Below, piece after piece: positions 4,350 through 61,807 of a stretch of DNA of 64,000 nt. The DNA is from Anaerotruncus massiliensis (ex Togo et al. 2026). GTDB taxonomy: Bacteria; Bacillota; Clostridia; Oscillospirales; Ruminococcaceae. Every line of letters starts with the position of its first letter. Position 1 is the first letter of the stretch. Below the pieces are notes generated by a model that was given only the letters and a program-made list of their open reading frames with translations, searched no databases and was not told where the DNA came from. The stretch is from positions 1 to 64,000 of the forward strand of contig NZ_LT962686.1 in assembly GCF_900199635.1 (NCBI RefSeq). Reading direction: 5' to 3'. The position numbers and the translations under genes were made by a program.

Positions 4350-5378
4350 ATGAAAAAGATCTGGAAGTCCACATTCGCCCTGTTGATGGCCCTCACGCTC
4401 CTGGTGAGCCTCGCGGCGTGCGGCGGAAGCCCAGCCTCCGCCCCGTCGGGAGACGCGGCCCCGCAGGCGGCGGCGCCGGCGGACGACGGCAAAAAGCCGC
4501 TGACCTGCCTGATCACCGAGGTGCCCAAGGGCGCGCCCTTCACCGACCTGACCTGGCTCGGCTTTGAAAAGCTCGAGGCCGAGGAAGGCATGGACATCAA
4601 GATGGTCGAGGCGATGGACAAGGCGGAGTACCCCGAGCAGATCCGCGCGATGGCGCAGCTCGGCGCGAACCCGATCTACGCGATGTTCGACACGGTCAAC
4701 GAGGTCGTGCTCGACGTGGCGGACGAGTTCCCCGACACCAAGTTCTACCTGATCGACTGCGAGATGGAAAACAGCGAGCCCAACTGCGCCAACCTCATCG
4801 TGGACCCGTATGAGGCCTCCTTCATCGCGGGCTTCGTCGCGGCGAAGACCACCGAGACGGGCAAGCTCGGCTGGATCGGCCACACCGACCACCCGACCAT
4901 CACCCGGTTCCGCGACGGCTACACCGCCGGCGCCAGATACGCCAACCCCGACATCGTCGTGGAGTCCGCTTTCACCGGCGACCCGAGCGACCCCGTCAAG
5001 GGCCAGGAGACCGCCAAGATCATCATTGACCGCGGCGTGGACGTGATCTTCCAGTCGGCCAACCAGTCGGGCATGGGCGTCATCAAGGCGTGCGGCGAGG
5101 CCGGCATCAAGTGCATCGGCGTCGACGAGTGGCAGGGCGACGTGGACCCCTGCGTCTTCTGGAGCGCGCTCAAGGACATCGACGGCGCGATCTACAAGAC
5201 CGGCAAGGACTTCCTCGCCGGCAACTTCACGGCGGGCCGCGTGGAATTCGGCATCAAGACCGACTCCCGCGTCTACGACCAGCGCGACTTCGACAAGCTC
5301 CCCGCGGAGCTCCAGACCGAGGTCTCCCAGCTCGTGGAGGACATCAAGACGGGCAAGGTGGACGTTTTCTCCAAATAG
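4350..5378 (+). CDS. BMP-family nucleoside-binding lipoprotein
   Basis: 342 aa. The signal peptide (KK, hydrophobic core, LAAC lipobox) is followed by an Ala/Ser/Pro-rich linker, then a type I periplasmic-binding fold of the basic membrane protein (PnrA/BmpA/Med) family. Visible family segments are FTDLTWLGFEKLE, MAQLGANPIYAMFD, DPYEASFIAGFVA, LGWIGHTDHPTI and DVIFQSANQSGMGV. BMP proteins bind purine nucleosides or similar ribosides and feed ABC importers. The ATG at 4350 lies 7 bases after GGGAGG; ATGs at 4335 and 4347 are too close to it. It begins the transport block of the operon, directly before its ATPase and two permeases. The exact ligand cannot be read from sequence. Confidence 0.9.
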   Translation: MKKIWKSTFALLMALTLLVSLAACGGSPASAPSGDAAPQAAAPADDGKKPLTCLITEVPKGAPFTDLTWLGFEKLEAEEGMDIKMVEAMDKAEYPEQIRAMAQLGANPIYAMFDTVNEVVLDVADEFPDTKFYLIDCEMENSEPNCANLIVDPYEASFIAGFVAAKTTETGKLGWIGHTDHPTITRFRDGYTAGARYANPDIVVESAFTGDPSDPVKGQETAKIIIDRGVDVIFQSANQSGMGVIKACGEAGIKCIGVDEWQGDVDPCVFWSALKDIDGAIYKTGKDFLAGNFTAGRVEFGIKTDSRVYDQRDFDKLPAELQTEVSQLVEDIKTGKVDVFSK

Positions 5379-6992: not shown

Positions 6993-8064
6993 GGCGTTCG
7001 CGGACAAGAAATCGGAGATCGTCAAATACCTGCTCGCCTTCGCGGCGGTCATGCTGATCGGCGCGGGGCTCATCTCCTTCCAGGGGGAGGACCCGGTCCG
7101 GGCGCTGTCGGCCATCTGGTCGGGCGCGCTGGGCGGGCGCATCGAAATCGGGAATACCATCCGCTGGATCATCCCCTGCGTCATGACGGGGATGGCCGCG
7201 GTCGTCGCCTTCAAGTCGGGCGTCAACAACCTCGGCATTGAGGGGCAGATCTATTTCGGCGGCTTCGCCGCCGCCATGGCGGGCTTTCTGGTCCAGCTCC
7301 CGCCGGTCGTCCACGTGCTCTTCTGCCTGCTGGTGGGGGGGCTCTGCGGGCTGCTTTACGCGCTCATCCCGGCGGTGCTCAAGCTCTTCTTCCGCATCGA
7401 CGAGATGATCACAACCCTGATGCTCAACTACATCGCCATCCTGCTGACCGAGTATTTCACCGTGCTGGTGATCGGCGCCTCGTCGAGCACCGCCTCCAAC
7501 GCCTTACAGACCCCGCCCGTCTACGAGACGGCCAAGCTGCCGGTGCTCATCAAGGGCACCTACGCCAACGCGGGCATCTTCGTGGCGGTCGCGGTGGTGG
7601 TCGTGGTGGCGTTCATCTACCGCTACACGATCAAGGGGTACGAGTTGCGGCAGGTGGGCGAAAACCTGCGCTTTTCCAAGGTAGGAGGCGTCAACGTCGT
7701 GCGCACCTTCCTGTCGATCTTTCTCATTTCCGGGTTCGTCGCGGGGCTGTGCGGCGGCGTGGAGGTGCTCGGCTCGCACGGGCGGTTCGTCTCCCGCTTC
7801 AGCAACAACCTCGGCTGGGACGGCATCATGATCTCGATGATCGCGAAGAACAGCCCCTTCGGCGTGCTCTTCGTCTCGATCCTCTGGGGCGTCCTGAAGG
7901 CGGGCGCGCTGCACATGGAGCGCGTCACCAACACCAACCGCCTGACGGTCGTGCTGATTCAGGCGCTCTTCGTCCTCTTCGTCACGATCGACTACAAGAA
8001 GATCTATGCCTTTTTCCGCGGGCGCTTCGGGCGCCGCGCCGTACAGAAGGGGGGCGCCGTCTGA
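6964..8064 (+). CDS. Nucleoside ABC transporter permease 1 (NupP type)
   Basis: 366 aa with about nine or ten hydrophobic segments, belonging to the BPD_transp_2 permease family paired with BMP-type systems. Conserved features are GVNNLGIEGQIYFGGF (residues about 82-97), the LFFRIDEMITTLMLNYIA segment, and the EAA-like VGGVNVVRTFLSIF loop. SD GGAGGAGGG precedes the ATG inside the end of the ATPase gene. The stop codon overlaps the ATG of the second permease (ATGA-type junction). It would form the membrane channel as a heterodimer with permease 2. Confidence 0.92.
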   Translation: MKAAASAALRAFADKKSEIVKYLLAFAAVMLIGAGLISFQGEDPVRALSAIWSGALGGRIEIGNTIRWIIPCVMTGMAAVVAFKSGVNNLGIEGQIYFGGFAAAMAGFLVQLPPVVHVLFCLLVGGLCGLLYALIPAVLKLFFRIDEMITTLMLNYIAILLTEYFTVLVIGASSSTASNALQTPPVYETAKLPVLIKGTYANAGIFVAVAVVVVVAFIYRYTIKGYELRQVGENLRFSKVGGVNVVRTFLSIFLISGFVAGLCGGVEVLGSHGRFVSRFSNNLGWDGIMISMIAKNSPFGVLFVSILWGVLKAGALHMERVTNTNRLTVVLIQALFVLFVTIDYKKIYAFFRGRFGRRAVQKGGAV

Positions 8065-29918: not shown

Positions 29919-30844
29919 GCCGGATGGCTCACCTCGTCTAAAAAGCGGTTGATGTAACCGTAGGCCTTCTGCACCTGCGCGAAGCGGGGCGGCAGGGAGA
30001 AAAAGCCGTGGAGCGCGTCGGGGATGCGGTGCATCTCCACCGGGACGCCCGCGCGCTTGAGGGCCTCGCCGTACGCCTCCCCCTCGTCCCGCAGCGGGTC
30101 GTATTCGGCCGTGAGGATGAGGGTCTGCGGCTGGTTGGAGAAGTCCTCCGCCGCCAGCGGCGCAAAATAGGGGTTTTCACAGTCCTCCGGGCCGCTCTGG
30201 TAGAGCTCCATATATTCGCAGATGCGCTTGGAGGTCAACAGATAGTCGGTACCGTTTTCACGCACCGATGGAAAGGGGGAATTTTCCGTATGGTCGGCCG
30301 CCGTGGCGGGATAGATAAGGATCTGGCTGCGCGGCAGGAATTCCCCCCGGTCGCGCGCCATCAGCGAGACCGCCGCCGCGAGGTTCGCCCCGGCGCTGTC
30401 CCCGATCAGCGTGATCTGGTCGGCCCGCATCCCAAAGAGGCTCAGATCGAGGAAGATTTCCCGCGCGACCGCATAGCAGTCCTCGGGCGCGGCGGGGAAG
30501 CGGTATTCGGGCGCGAGGCGGTAATCGACCGACACGACCGAACGGTCGGTCAGCTTCGCCATATTGCGGCAGACCTTGTCGTAGCTGTCGATGTTGCCCG
30601 TCACCCAGCCGCCCCCGTGGAAAAAGAGCAGGATGGCGTGCTCCCCCTCCGTCTCGGGGGAGAAGATGCGCACCGGAATGTCGTGGTCGCCGTAATGCAC
30701 CACGTGGTCCCACGGCTTATAGAAGAGAACGGGCCTGCCCGCCGCCGTCCGAAGCGCCCGCTCGATCGGGTAGGTCTTGCGGATGTCGATGTCCGGATAG
30801 GAGAGGGCTTTGAGCGCGGCGCGCATGGCCTTGTTGATTGCGAT
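29900..30844 (-). CDS. Alpha/beta hydrolase, HSL-type esterase/lipase
   Basis: 308 aa from the ATG at 30826, or 314 from an in-frame ATC at 30844. Oxyanion box HGGGWVTGN (about residue 69), nucleophile elbow GDSAGANLAAA (about 142), YDPLRDEGEAY (acid) and DALHGF (His) are all in place for a GDXG-family carboxylesterase. The only good ribosome site (AAAAGGAGGA, complement of 30851-30860) lies 6 bases before the ATC and 24 before the ATG, so the start is unusual. First gene of the minus-strand trio. Confidence 0.88.
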   Translation of the reverse strand: MAINKAMRAALKALSYPDIDIRKTYPIERALRTAAGRPVLFYKPWDHVVHYGDHDIPVRIFSPETEGEHAILLFFHGGGWVTGNIDSYDKVCRNMAKLTDRSVVSVDYRLAPEYRFPAAPEDCYAVAREIFLDLSLFGMRADQITLIGDSAGANLAAAVSLMARDRGEFLPRSQILIYPATAADHTENSPFPSVRENGTDYLLTSKRICEYMELYQSGPEDCENPYFAPLAAEDFSNQPQTLILTAEYDPLRDEGEAYGEALKRAGVPVEMHRIPDALHGFFSLPPRFAQVQKAYGYINRFLDEVSHPACQDNP

Positions 30845-30980
30845 GGGAATTCCTCCTTTTTTGCCGCTCGGGGAGCGGCGGAGCTTCTTCTTTGATATCC
30901 TGCTCAGAGCGCTTCAGATTTGCCGCACTGCGCCCGGCGGGGCTTCTTCTTAGATGTTCCGCCCGGGGGGGCGGAAGGCT

Positions 30981-31797
30981 TTTTTCGCGCCCCTCCGGGG
31001 CGCTTCAGATGTGCCGCCTTCGGCGGCGGGGATTGCCGGGTCCCGCCCCGGCAGGCGGGCCGACTTCTTGCGCGCCCAAGAAGTCGGCGGAAGAAGGGCG
31101 CTCAAGGGGGGCTTCAAGCGGCCTGCCCGGGCTACGCCCGGAGCGCGCTACGCGCGACGGCCGCTCAAAGGGCCTCGCCGGCCCTTTGGAACCCGCTTTG
31201 AGCCGCCTACGGCGGAATCTTTTGTAAGGAAGCGGGGCGCAAAGCTCGCCCCCCTTGAGAATCCCCCCGCCGCTCACGTCCAGCCAGCCGCGGGTAGAAG
31301 GCTAGTACCGCTGCGCCCAACATCCGGTTGTCGGAAGGCTCGCCGGGGACGCACGGCGGAAAACAACGCCCGTTCCGGGCGTTCGCGCGCTCCGCGCGCG
31401 TGCGCGGCGTAGCCGCGCAGTTTTCCGCCTCCCCGTGGGCGCTGCGCGCCACGCAAAAGCGGCCGTGCCTCCCCGGGCGCACTTCCGGTACGGTTCCGGA
31501 GACTCTCGGGCAGAGGCATTGCGCCCGCGGCGCGGCGGCTGGCGGGATGCTGTAGGCTCGTTCGCTCATCCGTGGCGGGGCGCCGCCGACTTTGGCCGAA
31601 GGCCAACCGGAGGCGGCGCGGGGGTCAAGGGGGCACGGCCCCCTGCGGCTTCTTTCCCCCATTTCTTGTCCGTACAAGAAATGGGGCCGCCCGCCGGGGC
31701 GGGACCCGGCAGCTCCGCCGCTTCATGAGCGGCAAATCCAAAACCGCCGTCGGTCGGCCACCGACAAACTCCGCCGCTCCCTGAGCGGCACATCCAA
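30981..31797. repeat. Mosaic GC-rich hairpin repeat, copy 1
   Basis: The gap 30845-31978 has no credible gene; its reading frames are Arg/Pro/Gly-rich by-products of GC-rich palindromes. It shares blocks with 43850-44923 and 61424-61807. An 18-bp word (31035-31052) recurs inverted at 31693-31710, each beside a hairpin with TTCTTG/CAAGAA arms (31063-31084 and 31660-31681) and a GCCGC/GCGGC hairpin, so the ends form complex terminal inverted repeats. The block 31118-31166 recurs inverted at 44712-44760. A second end block with CCGACAAACTC lies at 31749-31797. No transposase is encoded; a non-autonomous mobile or structured-RNA element is possible. Confidence 0.8.
31355..31429. other. Perfect four-way junction, copy 1
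   Basis: GGCGGAAAAC (31355-31364) pairs with GTTTTCCGCC (31420-31429). Between them three hairpins follow without a spare base: AACGCCCG-TTC-CGGGCGTT (31365-31383), CGCGCGC-TCC-GCGCGCG (31384-31400), TGCGCGGC-GTA-GCCGCGCA (31401-31419). The homologous structure at 44341-44415 keeps the fold with a different third arm, so pairing is conserved. It may be a structured RNA or a cruciform; transcription is not shown. Confidence 0.75.
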
Positions 31798-31898
31798 CCT
31801 CATTATGATCAGTATACCACAAAGCGGAGGGGTTTGAACAGGAATCCGCGCGTAAAATCTCACAAGCGCGTACAGAGGGCACGGCTGGCGGTTTTCCC

Positions 31899-31927
31899 TT
31901 GTAAACAGGGGGCGGATGTGATAAAAT
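31899..31927 (+). promoter_or_regulatory. SigmaA promoter
   Basis: TTGTAA (31899-31904), 17-bp spacer, TAAAAT (31922-31927), 51 bp before the ATG at 31979. Confidence 0.6.
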
Positions 31928-31978
31928 TGCGGCAGAAGCGTCGCCCGGCGGCGGGCGTGTGGAGGAGGAGTGCGGCAA

Positions 31979-43702: not shown

Positions 43703-43716
43703 TCTCCCAATTCTCT

Positions 43717-43744
43717 CCCTGCGCGCGGTTTTCCGCGCGCAGGG
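43717..43744. other. Perfect hairpin without U-tract
   Basis: CCCTGCGCGCGG-TTTT-CCGCGCGCAGGG, a 12-bp perfect stem 15 bp after the binding-protein gene, followed by AAACCC. It may protect the 3' end of the abundant binding-protein mRNA. Confidence 0.6.
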
Positions 43745-43849
43745 AAACCCATCCCCGGACGGAAGGTTTCCCATCTGACGCCGGGGCCGGAAACGGGCGG
43801 CTTCCGCTGGTCGGGGGCCGCCCATGGATTTTTTCCGCCCTGCGGGCGG

Positions 43850-44130
43850 TTCTGGATTTGCCGCGCTGCGCCCGGCTGGGCTATCACGGGAATTGCCGCT
43901 TAAAAAGCGGCAAGAATCACGAGCGCGTTTTGCCGCGCGGCGGTTTTCGATTTCCCGCCCAGCGGTCGGAGCCTTTTTCGCGCCCCTCCGGGGCACTCCA
44001 GATGTGCCGCCTTCGGCGGCGGAGATTGCCGGGTCCCGCCCCGGCGGTGGTTCTGGATTTGCCGCGCTGCGCCCGGCGGGGCTATCGCGGGAATTGCCGC
44101 TTAAAAAGCGGCAAGAATTACGAGCGCGTT
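43850..44130. repeat. Two direct 80-bp repeats, period 201 bp
   Basis: 43850-43929 and 44051-44130 are nearly identical, each with a TTGCCGCTT/AAGCGGCAA hairpin. Between them lies a block (about 43971-44045) shared with 30981-31052 of copy 1. Confidence 0.8.
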
Positions 44131-44923
44131 CCGCCGCGCGCCACGGGTTCCTTTTCGGACGGACGAAAAGGAACCAAAAGTCCGCCTAAGGGGGCTCCAC
44201 CGCCCCCTTAGGGATCCCCTGGAGTACCTTGCCATAACCCGCAGACTACCGCCGCTCCCCACGGGTACACCAGCTGAGGGCTCAATTCAGGTTGCGGGCG
44301 CTCCCAACGACCGAAGCCAGCGGGCTCGCCGGGAACACCCGGCGGAAAACAACGCCCGTTCCGGGCGTTCGCGCGCTTTGCGCGCGCGGGCGGCTGTACC
44401 GCCCGGTTTTCCGCCTCCCCATGGGCGCTGCGCGCCACGCAAAAGCGGCCGTGCCTCCACGAATGCACTTTCGGTACTGCTCCGGAGACTCTCGGGCAGA
44501 GGCATTGCGCCCGCGGCGCGGCGCCAGGCGGGATGCTGGACACCCGCCAATTGATCCGTGACAGGGCGCCGCCGACTTTGGCTGAAGGCCAACCAGAGGC
44601 GGCGCTGGGGTCGCAGGGATTTGGCCGCAGGCCATCCTGATAGAGAATCCGGCCCGCAGGGCCGGGTCCGCGCAGCGGACTCAAGCCGGGGCCGCGGGGC
44701 GGAGCGCCCGCGAGCGGCCGTCGCGCGTAGCGCGCTCCGGGCGCAGCCCGGGCAGGCCGCCTAAGCCCCTCGTGCCCTTCTTTGGTTCCTTTCTTGGGCA
44801 CGCAAGAAAGGAACTCGCTGTCGGTCGACTACCGACAAACTCTACCGCTCGATGAGCGGATAATCTCAAACCACAGTCGGGGCGGGACCCGGCAACTCCG
44901 CCGCTCCATGAGCGGCAAATCGA
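43971..44923. repeat. Mosaic GC-rich hairpin repeat, copy 2
   Basis: The gap 43703-44936 contains no credible gene. The 18-bp end word at 44028-44045 recurs inverted (16 bp) at 44878-44893. Compared with copy 1, the CCGACAAACTC block (44820-44866) now lies before, not after, the right-end block (44877-44923), and the block 44712-44760 is inverted. A TTTCTTG/CAAGAAA hairpin lies at 44788-44816. It separates the sugar importer from the sugar-phosphate operon. Confidence 0.8.
44341..44415. other. Perfect four-way junction, copy 2
   Basis: GGCGGAAAAC (44341-44350) pairs with GTTTTCCGCC (44406-44415). Arms: AACGCCCG-TTC-CGGGCGTT, CGCGCGC-TTT-GCGCGCG, CGGGCGG-CTGTA-CCGCCCG (44387-44405), contiguous with no unpaired joints. 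Arms 1 and 2 keep the stem sequence of copy 1; arm 3 differs on both strands yet still pairs. Confidence 0.75.
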
Positions 44924-44936
44924 AAGGAGAGCACAG

Positions 44937-61423: not shown

Positions 61424-61807
61424 CGGGAACCGCAGTTTCCCGTCCCCGGTGCGCCGCGCACCCACCGGCAAAGGCCGTGCCTCCCCGGGAGCACTCCCAG
61501 TACGGTACCGGAGGCTCGCCGGCAAAGGCCGTGCCTCCCCCGGGAGCACTCCCGGGACGGTTCCGGAGGCTCTCAGGCAGAGGCATTGCGCCCGCGGCGC
61601 GGCGGCGGGCGGGATGCTGTCGGCTTGTCCGCTGATCCGTGAAACGGGCGCCGCCGACTTTGGCCGCAGGCCAACCGGAGGCGGCGCTGGGGGTCAAGGG
61701 GGCACAGCCCCCTGCGGCTTCTTTCCCCTATTTCTTGGGCGGCCAAGAAATAGGGCCGCCCGCCGGGGCGGGCCCCGGCAGCTCCGCCGCTTCCCGAGCG
61801 GCAACCC
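61424..61807. repeat. Mosaic GC-rich hairpin repeat, copy 3 (shortened)
   Basis: The gap 61311-61915 is non-coding apart from this element. In place of the four-way junction is a simple CGGGAA/TTCCCG hairpin (61424-61442). A 54-bp unit starting CCGGCAAAGG is tandemly repeated (61465 and 61519) with a third degenerate unit at 61574. The rest matches copy 1 up to the right-end word at 61762-61779 and the GCCGC/GCGGC hairpin at 61784-61802. The left end is absent. Confidence 0.78.

Follow-up and report, generated by a model that had tools for sequence, protein, structure and literature searches.

A three-armed four-way junction that recurs in intergenic spacers of one bacterial genome and in unrelated-looking sequences of its relatives

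What kind of genetic element is an intergenic segment of 75 bp that closes, on either strand, into a cross of four stems? The question is raised by two copies in the window, by which we mean the whole 64-kb stretch of DNA that was analyzed (C6:1-64000 of the 3.15-Mb assembly G000). Copy 1 (31355..31429; 75 bp, assigned to neither strand) folds alike on both. The left half of its closing stem, GGCGGAAAAC (31355..31364), pairs with the right half, GTTTTCCGCC (31420..31429), and the stem is placed by the fold and by its divergence among copies. Between the two halves lie arms 1 (31365..31383; 8 bp, 3-nt loop), 2 (31384..31400; 7 bp, 3-nt loop), and 3 (31401..31419; 8 bp, 3-nt loop), all defined by the fold and by compensatory changes among copies. 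Copy 2 (44341..44415), also 75 bp and without a strand, has an arm 3 of 7 bp with a 5-nt loop when read on the plus strand.

A first-pass annotation of the sequence had described both copies as a 10-bp stem holding exactly three hairpins with no unpaired joints, and folds computed as RNA and as DNA agree with that description on either strand. As RNA, all four strands of the two copies gave z scores of -5.6 to -6.6, and none of 200 shuffles was as stable; as DNA, the three of four strands that were folded gave -7.2 to -7.8. The annotation was also right that arm 3 and the loop of arm 2 differ between the copies while the arms still pair. From these two copies it argued for selection on structure. 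The conservation of pairing holds up in a set of 14 copies (see below), but two copies alone could not make the case. Their likeness is one of common descent because both sit within a longer repeat of ~300 bp. The core of that repeat, found on the plus strand by searching the genome against itself, extends over 31332..31632 around copy 1, where an alignment of copies also defines it, and over 44323..44612 around copy 2. A third, partial repeat found in the same way on the plus strand (61527..61804) is one of several copies in the genome that consist of the right half without the four-way junction (others are L025, L032, L033, and L038).

The first-pass annotation knew of no named element of this form, and neither do we. 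Rfam 15 gave no match at the gathering score in the 64-kb window, and ARAGORN predicted no tRNA in the window or in L139; a known RNA family and a tRNA or tRNA-like gene were thus rejected as identities. In the literature, which was covered mostly outside subscription journals, the available portions of the sources (including PMC3733652, PMC2267715, PMC12306157, PMC3116915, and PMC13155455) likewise describe no such element.

A family in one genome and a three-arm rule

With its halves separated by 40-70 nt, the exact closing stem GGCGGAAAAC...GTTTTCCGCC occurs 39 times in G000, compared to zero times for a reversed-pattern control. A covariance model, the route that the first-pass annotation had proposed for this genome and its relatives, was built from 14 diverse copies and found 50 places in G000, a count that includes the 14 training rows and comes from scoring only 150 of the 9,341 first-look candidates. 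The whole junction is present in 35 of the 42 aligned rows of the ~300-bp intergenic repeat; in one copy of the repeat the junction is inverted, and in another most of it is gone. At 14 places the junction stands alone. There, likeness mostly stops at the closing stem, and the arms are unlike one another and mostly fully paired, with two such copies (L058 and L063) having common flanks by eye. The element measures about 70-125 bp, and its closing stem has compensated variants in G000 (GGCGGAAAAT, GGCGAAAAAC, and GGCGGGAAAC) and in the congener G001 (GGCGGCGAAAG). Many further copies with failed arm pairing would, according to the first-pass annotation, have spoken against its reading. No such multitude appeared, but some copies do carry mismatches, and at least three of the 50 model places fold poorly (C7:2892561, C7:1993618, and C4:4459).

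If the letters of the arms vary this freely, the architecture can be sought without them. Our scanner presupposes no particular sequence and reports any number of abutting hairpins (stem of at least 6, loop of 3-8, at most one mismatch per arm) on a closing stem of at least 8 pairs; in trials on synthetic junctions, it recovered all 200 at every arm number. In the window, it returned two three-arm junctions, which are copies 1 and 2, both when gap-free junctions were demanded and when joints of up to one base were allowed, and the gap-free scan found no two-, four-, or five-arm junctions there. Lax settings (stem 5, closing stem 6, joints 2) added three window matches with scores of 15-17, compared to 32-33 for the two copies. 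We extended the scan to two chunks of 400 kb, or 800 kb in sum, which is about a quarter of G000. The chunk C7:2600001-3000000 held 16 three-arm junctions (12 gap-free) and three weak, gapped two-arm ones, and C7:1-400000 held 11 (6 gap-free) and one, respectively; together, there were 27 three-arm junctions (18 gap-free), four weak two-arm structures, and no four- or five-arm structures. When joints were allowed to reach 3 nt and stems had to be at least 7 in the same chunks, the tallies were 13 and 9 with three arms, 1 and 2 with two arms, and none with four or five.

Two of the 27 junctions (C7:2816017 and 177189) lie within predicted genes and are probably due to chance. Six of the remaining 25 have other closing stems (C7:2778207, 2784230, 2813475, 2896555 [125 nt], 191088, and 175936), and the stems at 191088 and 175936 look like compensated versions of the main stem. 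Dinucleotide shuffles amounting to 12 Mb contained no three-arm junction; their 2-Mb part, five shuffles of C7:2600001-3000000, had no junction of any kind, and the other 10 Mb had two with two arms. Three-arm junctions were also absent from 50 kb of E. coli and 300 kb of pSymA and, at standard settings, from 44 foreign contigs (322,632 bases). Lax settings produced three-arm matches in 4 of those 44 contigs (scores of 15.5-26.5) and weak ones in G001, with none in shuffles. The architecture of one stem and three arms is constant while the letters differ, even if the distinct arms of the GGCGGAAAAC family are only partly independent of one another. It would seem to be the shape of the cross, then, that is kept or copied.

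Relatives and phages

The exact closing stem was absent from all 10 congeners. With the covariance model, one junction of unlike sequence was found in G001, where it has two single-base joints; blind scanning of 400 kb of G001 added nothing to it, and 100 kb of G004 yielded no junction. In G002, six three-arm places were found in 160 kb and five more in another 400 kb, the latter scan also returning one gap-free two-arm structure. None of these 11 places is gap-free (the unpaired bases at their joints number 1-3), and one of them falls within a predicted gene. In G001 and G002 taken together, most junctions have one or two such bases. Two sequence families of G002, X and Y, sit side by side, 3-7 nt apart, and are duplicated at one place. 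Repeated X/Y composites occur at L218:5880-6310, L234:15817-15975, and L243:11916-12074.

Across the wider family (247 genomes), the model matched in G054 and G031 at an E value of about 0.01. Both matches fold well, and both could be chance, as 2.5 such matches are expected by our own reckoning; blind scanning of 140 kb of G054 returned nothing besides the match. No junction was found in 280 kb drawn from 11 genomes of other genera and G007. An exact scan of a genome contig collection, from which our own and near genomes may be absent, returned this closing stem in 44 stretches. Not one of them forms three well-paired arms, the nearest being a loose three-arm fold in L103, and we rejected them as family members, taking them as chance. 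Similarly, two viral contigs contain the exact closing stem, neither with a junction.

Phages do carry the architecture in other letters. The G001 junction lies in a phage-like region, where it begins 11 nt past the stop codon of a major capsid gene. In a related phage with a 77% identical capsid (L167/L170), a gap-free junction of wholly different sequence also begins 11 nt past the stop (phage contig IMGVR_UViG_3300027276_000224, 11035-11111). Another phage whose capsid is 77% identical (L166/L169) has no junction there, and among ten capsid-relative loci (L169, L170, and L172-L179) a junction follows the capsid gene in L170 alone. Several more distant capsid relatives have a plain hairpin at this position, and others have nothing of junction form; L165 ends inside an apparent G001-type junction, and L171 ends within the capsid gene. 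Further down the same phage region, L167 contains a second, looser three-arm structure (7822-7909) that is visible at lax settings only. In G000, one junction lies 2 nt behind an unassigned gene that adjoins a baseplate-wedge gene and is, for that reason, probably in a prophage. For the gene lying upstream of the junction in L134, neither viral relatives nor a PHROG match were found. Taken together, three-arm junctions recur across several genomes of the genus and in a phage, in sequences that bear no evident resemblance to each other. Spread by copying is evident only within sequence families, because no unrelated junction is a copy of another.

DNA cross, RNA structure, or mutational by-product

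The reading that we prefer, tentatively and at somewhat below even chances, is that of REPIN-like, non-autonomous dispersed intergenic DNA elements whose single strands fold into a four-way junction. The unit of function would be the junction itself, that is, an inverted terminal repeat (commonly GGCGGAAAAC...GTTTTCCGCC) closing exactly three abutting hairpins. Either strand could fold into the cross when single stranded, most likely as the lagging strand in replication. A host factor would read the ends and the four-way shape rather than the letters of the arms, and it would spread or maintain the element in intergenic spacers, as the RAYT transposase does for REPINs. Meanwhile, arms would drift, be swapped, and regain perfect pairing through template switching and selection. 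We infer the action as DNA, the mobility, and the existence of a recognizing factor from sequence; directly observed are the fold, its return in dissimilar sequences, the three-arm rule in the scanned DNA, the lower divergence of paired positions than of loops, the intergenic placement of most copies, and the lack of the element at one orthologous site in two congeners.

Four features lead us to favor DNA: the lack of a strand bias in wobble pairs, the small loops, the placements between divergent genes, and an apparent lineage-specific gain. The first-pass annotation had left a structured RNA and a DNA cross recognized by a protein side by side, and the DNA cross seems to fit somewhat better. 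Loops of three bases close 63 of 87 junction arms, compared to 90 of 252 other intergenic hairpins, and 30 of the 63 are of the GNA or TNC type, compared to 20 of the 90; in this comparison, the arms are not all independent, the stem criteria differ slightly between the sets, and six standard copies and junctions scoring below 27 are left out. Triloops of the GNA or TNC type are unusually stable in DNA, as in GCGAAGC hairpins.

The apparent gain is seen between two genes that, from their translations, we take to encode a GNAT protein and a patatin. Their spacer in G000 is 182 nt long, including a junction. The GNAT frame of G003 and of G008 runs 4 nt past the patatin start so that the genes overlap (the GNAT match reaches residue 315-318 of 319, and the G003 patatin match holds one stop), and G005 reads the same from a match to the first half of GNAT only. 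The gene order is different in G001 and G002, and G004 and G010 have no GNAT gene upstream. Absence of the element from this one orthologous site in two congeners (G003 and G008) would make its presence in G000 a lineage-specific gain. Similarly, the element was found in none of the 3' regions (220 nt each) of a gene that is presumably glmS in seven congeners.

Other evidence complicates the preferred reading. None of the G002 places is gap-free, the one gap-free structure of G002 has two arms, the G001 junction has its two single-base joints, and the GNAT-patatin spacer can have grown without insertion. A possible, though less probable, alternative is a class of elements defined by topology only: a four-way, Holliday-like junction of a stem and exactly three hairpins that abut, in most G000 cases with no unpaired joint, which would have arisen time and again from unrelated sequences in a single bacterial lineage and its phages and been kept or amplified by a factor that recognizes the junction itself.

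It is rather unlikely, in our estimation, that the junctions function as intercistronic RNA, in which case the transcript of a gene's 3' end would form a coaxially stacked four-way junction that blocks 3'-5' exonucleases or separates the expression of operon neighbors. The proximity of stand-alone copies to stop codons suits such a role too. According to a home-made gene caller, 13 of 15 evaluable stand-alone copies lie no more than 85 nt downstream of a stop codon, with one overlapping a weakly predicted gene end, and 12 are between codirectional genes, two between convergent genes, and one between divergent genes. These 15 exclude 82604 and C6:93071, which have no right neighbor, the poorly folding 2892561 and 1993618, and the two scan junctions within predicted genes. 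The RNA account is also in keeping with the common 11-nt spacing behind the capsid genes of G001 and L170 in spite of their wholly different sequences, the 2-nt distance behind the neighbor of the baseplate-wedge gene in G000, and the great stability of the fold as RNA. Furthermore, the 24 of 30 copies of the 300-bp repeat that could be placed are distributed over codirectional (12), convergent (10), and divergent (2) spacers, which make up 61%, 12%, and 27% of spacer bases, respectively, so that divergent spacers hold fewer than their share.

Against the RNA account, most of the 300-bp copies are 300-700 nt away from genes, divergent genes flank window copy 1, and of the five X/Y places in G002, two are divergent and one is 35 nt before a start. 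Single-sided changes show no strand preference (in 32 copies, 14 make a wobble pair on the plus strand, 12 on the minus strand, and 1 neither), whereas, for an RNA, G-U pairs would be acceptable on just one of the two strands. The loops are triloops and not tetraloops, and most capsid relatives lack a junction at that site. Intrinsic terminators and the stabilizing hairpins of mRNA 3' ends are placed just after stop codons, as are many of the stand-alone copies. Unlike those structures, the elements have several arms and some divergent placements, the junction at the presumed glmS gene of G000 lies beyond a separate terminator-like hairpin, and no T run follows the closing stem by eye in the stand-alone copies inspected. 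By this inspection, the elements do not have the form of an intrinsic terminator, a G+C-rich hairpin with a T run behind it.

A still less probable account is that the junctions are a by-product of mutation, with template switching homogenizing the arms of inverted repeats in a hairpin-rich genome and no function involved. Spacers of G000 are indeed rich in hairpins (252 in 67 kb), and template switching in DNA produces multiple compensatory changes and inverted loops, according to the accessible parts of two reports (PMC8794818, PMC8604942). Our alignments have both. In the alignment of 14 copies, for which the structure was written from those same sequences, 97.8% of pair cells are standard, compared to 35-51% when partners are slid, and double changes occur in 33 cells, compared to 10.4 in shuffles. 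Further pair types are not raised (15, compared to 17.2 in shuffles), so that the covariation proposed as a check by the first-pass annotation exceeds the shuffles in one measure and not in the other. The set of 32 copies, from which 3 of the 42 aligned rows were dropped for their length and 7 for lacking the whole junction, shows single-sided changes in 27 cases and double Watson-Crick changes in 10, and the doubles are not all independent of one another; we estimate that independent single changes would give fewer than 0.1 doubles. Several doubles are flips between G-C and C-G, only one of the 27 singles could represent an intermediate, and three loops read as the exact reverse complement of a form found in the family. 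Flips with few intermediates and inverted loops are footprints of template switching. Because that process makes the same pattern, the compensatory signal by itself is no proof of selection.

The contrast between stems and loops needs the same caution. In 33 of the 42 aligned rows, divergence from the consensus is 0.8% in the closing stem, 2.4% in the arm stems, and 19.5% in the loops, with 17.7% in the left flank and 8.3% in the right flank, where some blocks are conserved like stems. This contrast alone is not special, since arms of inverted repeats are generally less variable than their spacers across bacteria, as stated in the available text of PMC13155455. Nevertheless, a by-product of mutation leaves unexplained why three arms abut a closing stem when two, four, or five hardly do, and why near-invariant terminal ten bases stand beside changing arms. 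Template switching accounts for part of the compensatory signal but not for the three-arm rule.

Finally, chance assembly of GC palindromes is highly improbable: the genome is GC rich with many palindromes, the G054 and G031 matches are marginal for a search of 247 genomes, and one of the 44 same-stem foreign stretches (L103) folds loosely with three arms, but the empty 12 Mb of dinucleotide shuffles, the lack of three well-paired arms in any of those 44 stretches, and the low divergence of stems among copies already contradict it.

Comparison with known palindromic elements

Returning to the preferred reading of a DNA element, the closest counterpart is the REPIN, a doublet of REP sequences that forms a hairpin and is linked to RAYT in Pseudomonas fluorescens. 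Its ends are conserved and its middle pairs and compensates, as described in the accessible portion of PMC3116915, where a supplementary legend also names a "clover" configuration. On that description, the elements here resemble REPINs in being short, extragenic, repeated palindromic units with conserved termini and a variable middle that keeps its length and pairing and is frequently compensated. They are unlike REPINs, which form one hairpin, in making a four-way junction with three hairpins, and their architecture is common to unrelated-looking sequences. Their ends also differ, reading GGCG...CGCC and lacking the GTAG and CGTC tags by which REP families are defined in the available part of PMC3733652. 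No tag (GTAG/GGAG or CGTC) was found at the hairpin foot, where 39 copies have GGCGGAAAAC/GTTTTCCGCC. Likewise, REPs are given in that part of the text as palindromes of 20-40 bp with a tetranucleotide tag at one end; REPs and BIMEs share with our elements the intergenic, repeated, palindromic, and sometimes arrayed arrangement, as in the alternating X and Y of G002, but are shorter than these three-hairpin crosses of 70-125 bp.

We found no autonomous partner. The Y1 transposase domain (PF01797) had no match in G000, G001, or G002, and we rejected a RAYT/Y1 transposase as the mobilizer. The domain is present in 6 of 11 genomes of the genus and in 5 of 14 control genomes, and it is also absent from G003 and G010, in which no junction was found. 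Because the transposase is missing from G000, G001, and G002, we consider the elements REPIN-like in their putative working and do not assign them to the REPIN/RAYT system. One trait of MITEs, a terminal inverted repeat, is present as the 10 bp at the ends; inspection by eye of the flanks of stand-alone copies revealed no convincing target-site duplication. The double-hairpin elements of fungal and algal mitochondria look mobile and are named for their fold. In contrast to those elements, which are mitochondrial and have two hairpins by name, the ones described here have a closing stem with three arms.

To our knowledge, the palindromic repeats of bacteria form families whose members are related in sequence and based on a single hairpin. 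What is common here is the branching of three arms from a stem, across sequences without evident similarity. If that shape is recognized, a junction-binding protein or a route of single-strand mobilization awaits discovery. More generally, the case provides a test for telling structural selection from mutation by template switching.

Some smaller observations concern the surroundings of individual copies. On contig C4 of G000 (L136), the repeat at 4459 abuts the end of a gene for what we take to be an XRE-like regulator, the last codons and stop of which are inside the left part of the junction. Downstream, 4780-4960 holds about three tandem copies of a unit of ~58 bp, followed by a presumably queG-like gene. 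In the window, the spacers at 30827-31978 and 43703-44936, both longer than 1 kb by our home-made gene calls, contain numerous hairpin modules; several of these turn up at other places of the genome, arranged as a mosaic. Within the right part of the 300-bp repeat, the blocks 31510-31540 and 31580-31590 diverge by 1-2% in 33 copies amid more variable sequence and are possibly protein sites or a second structure.
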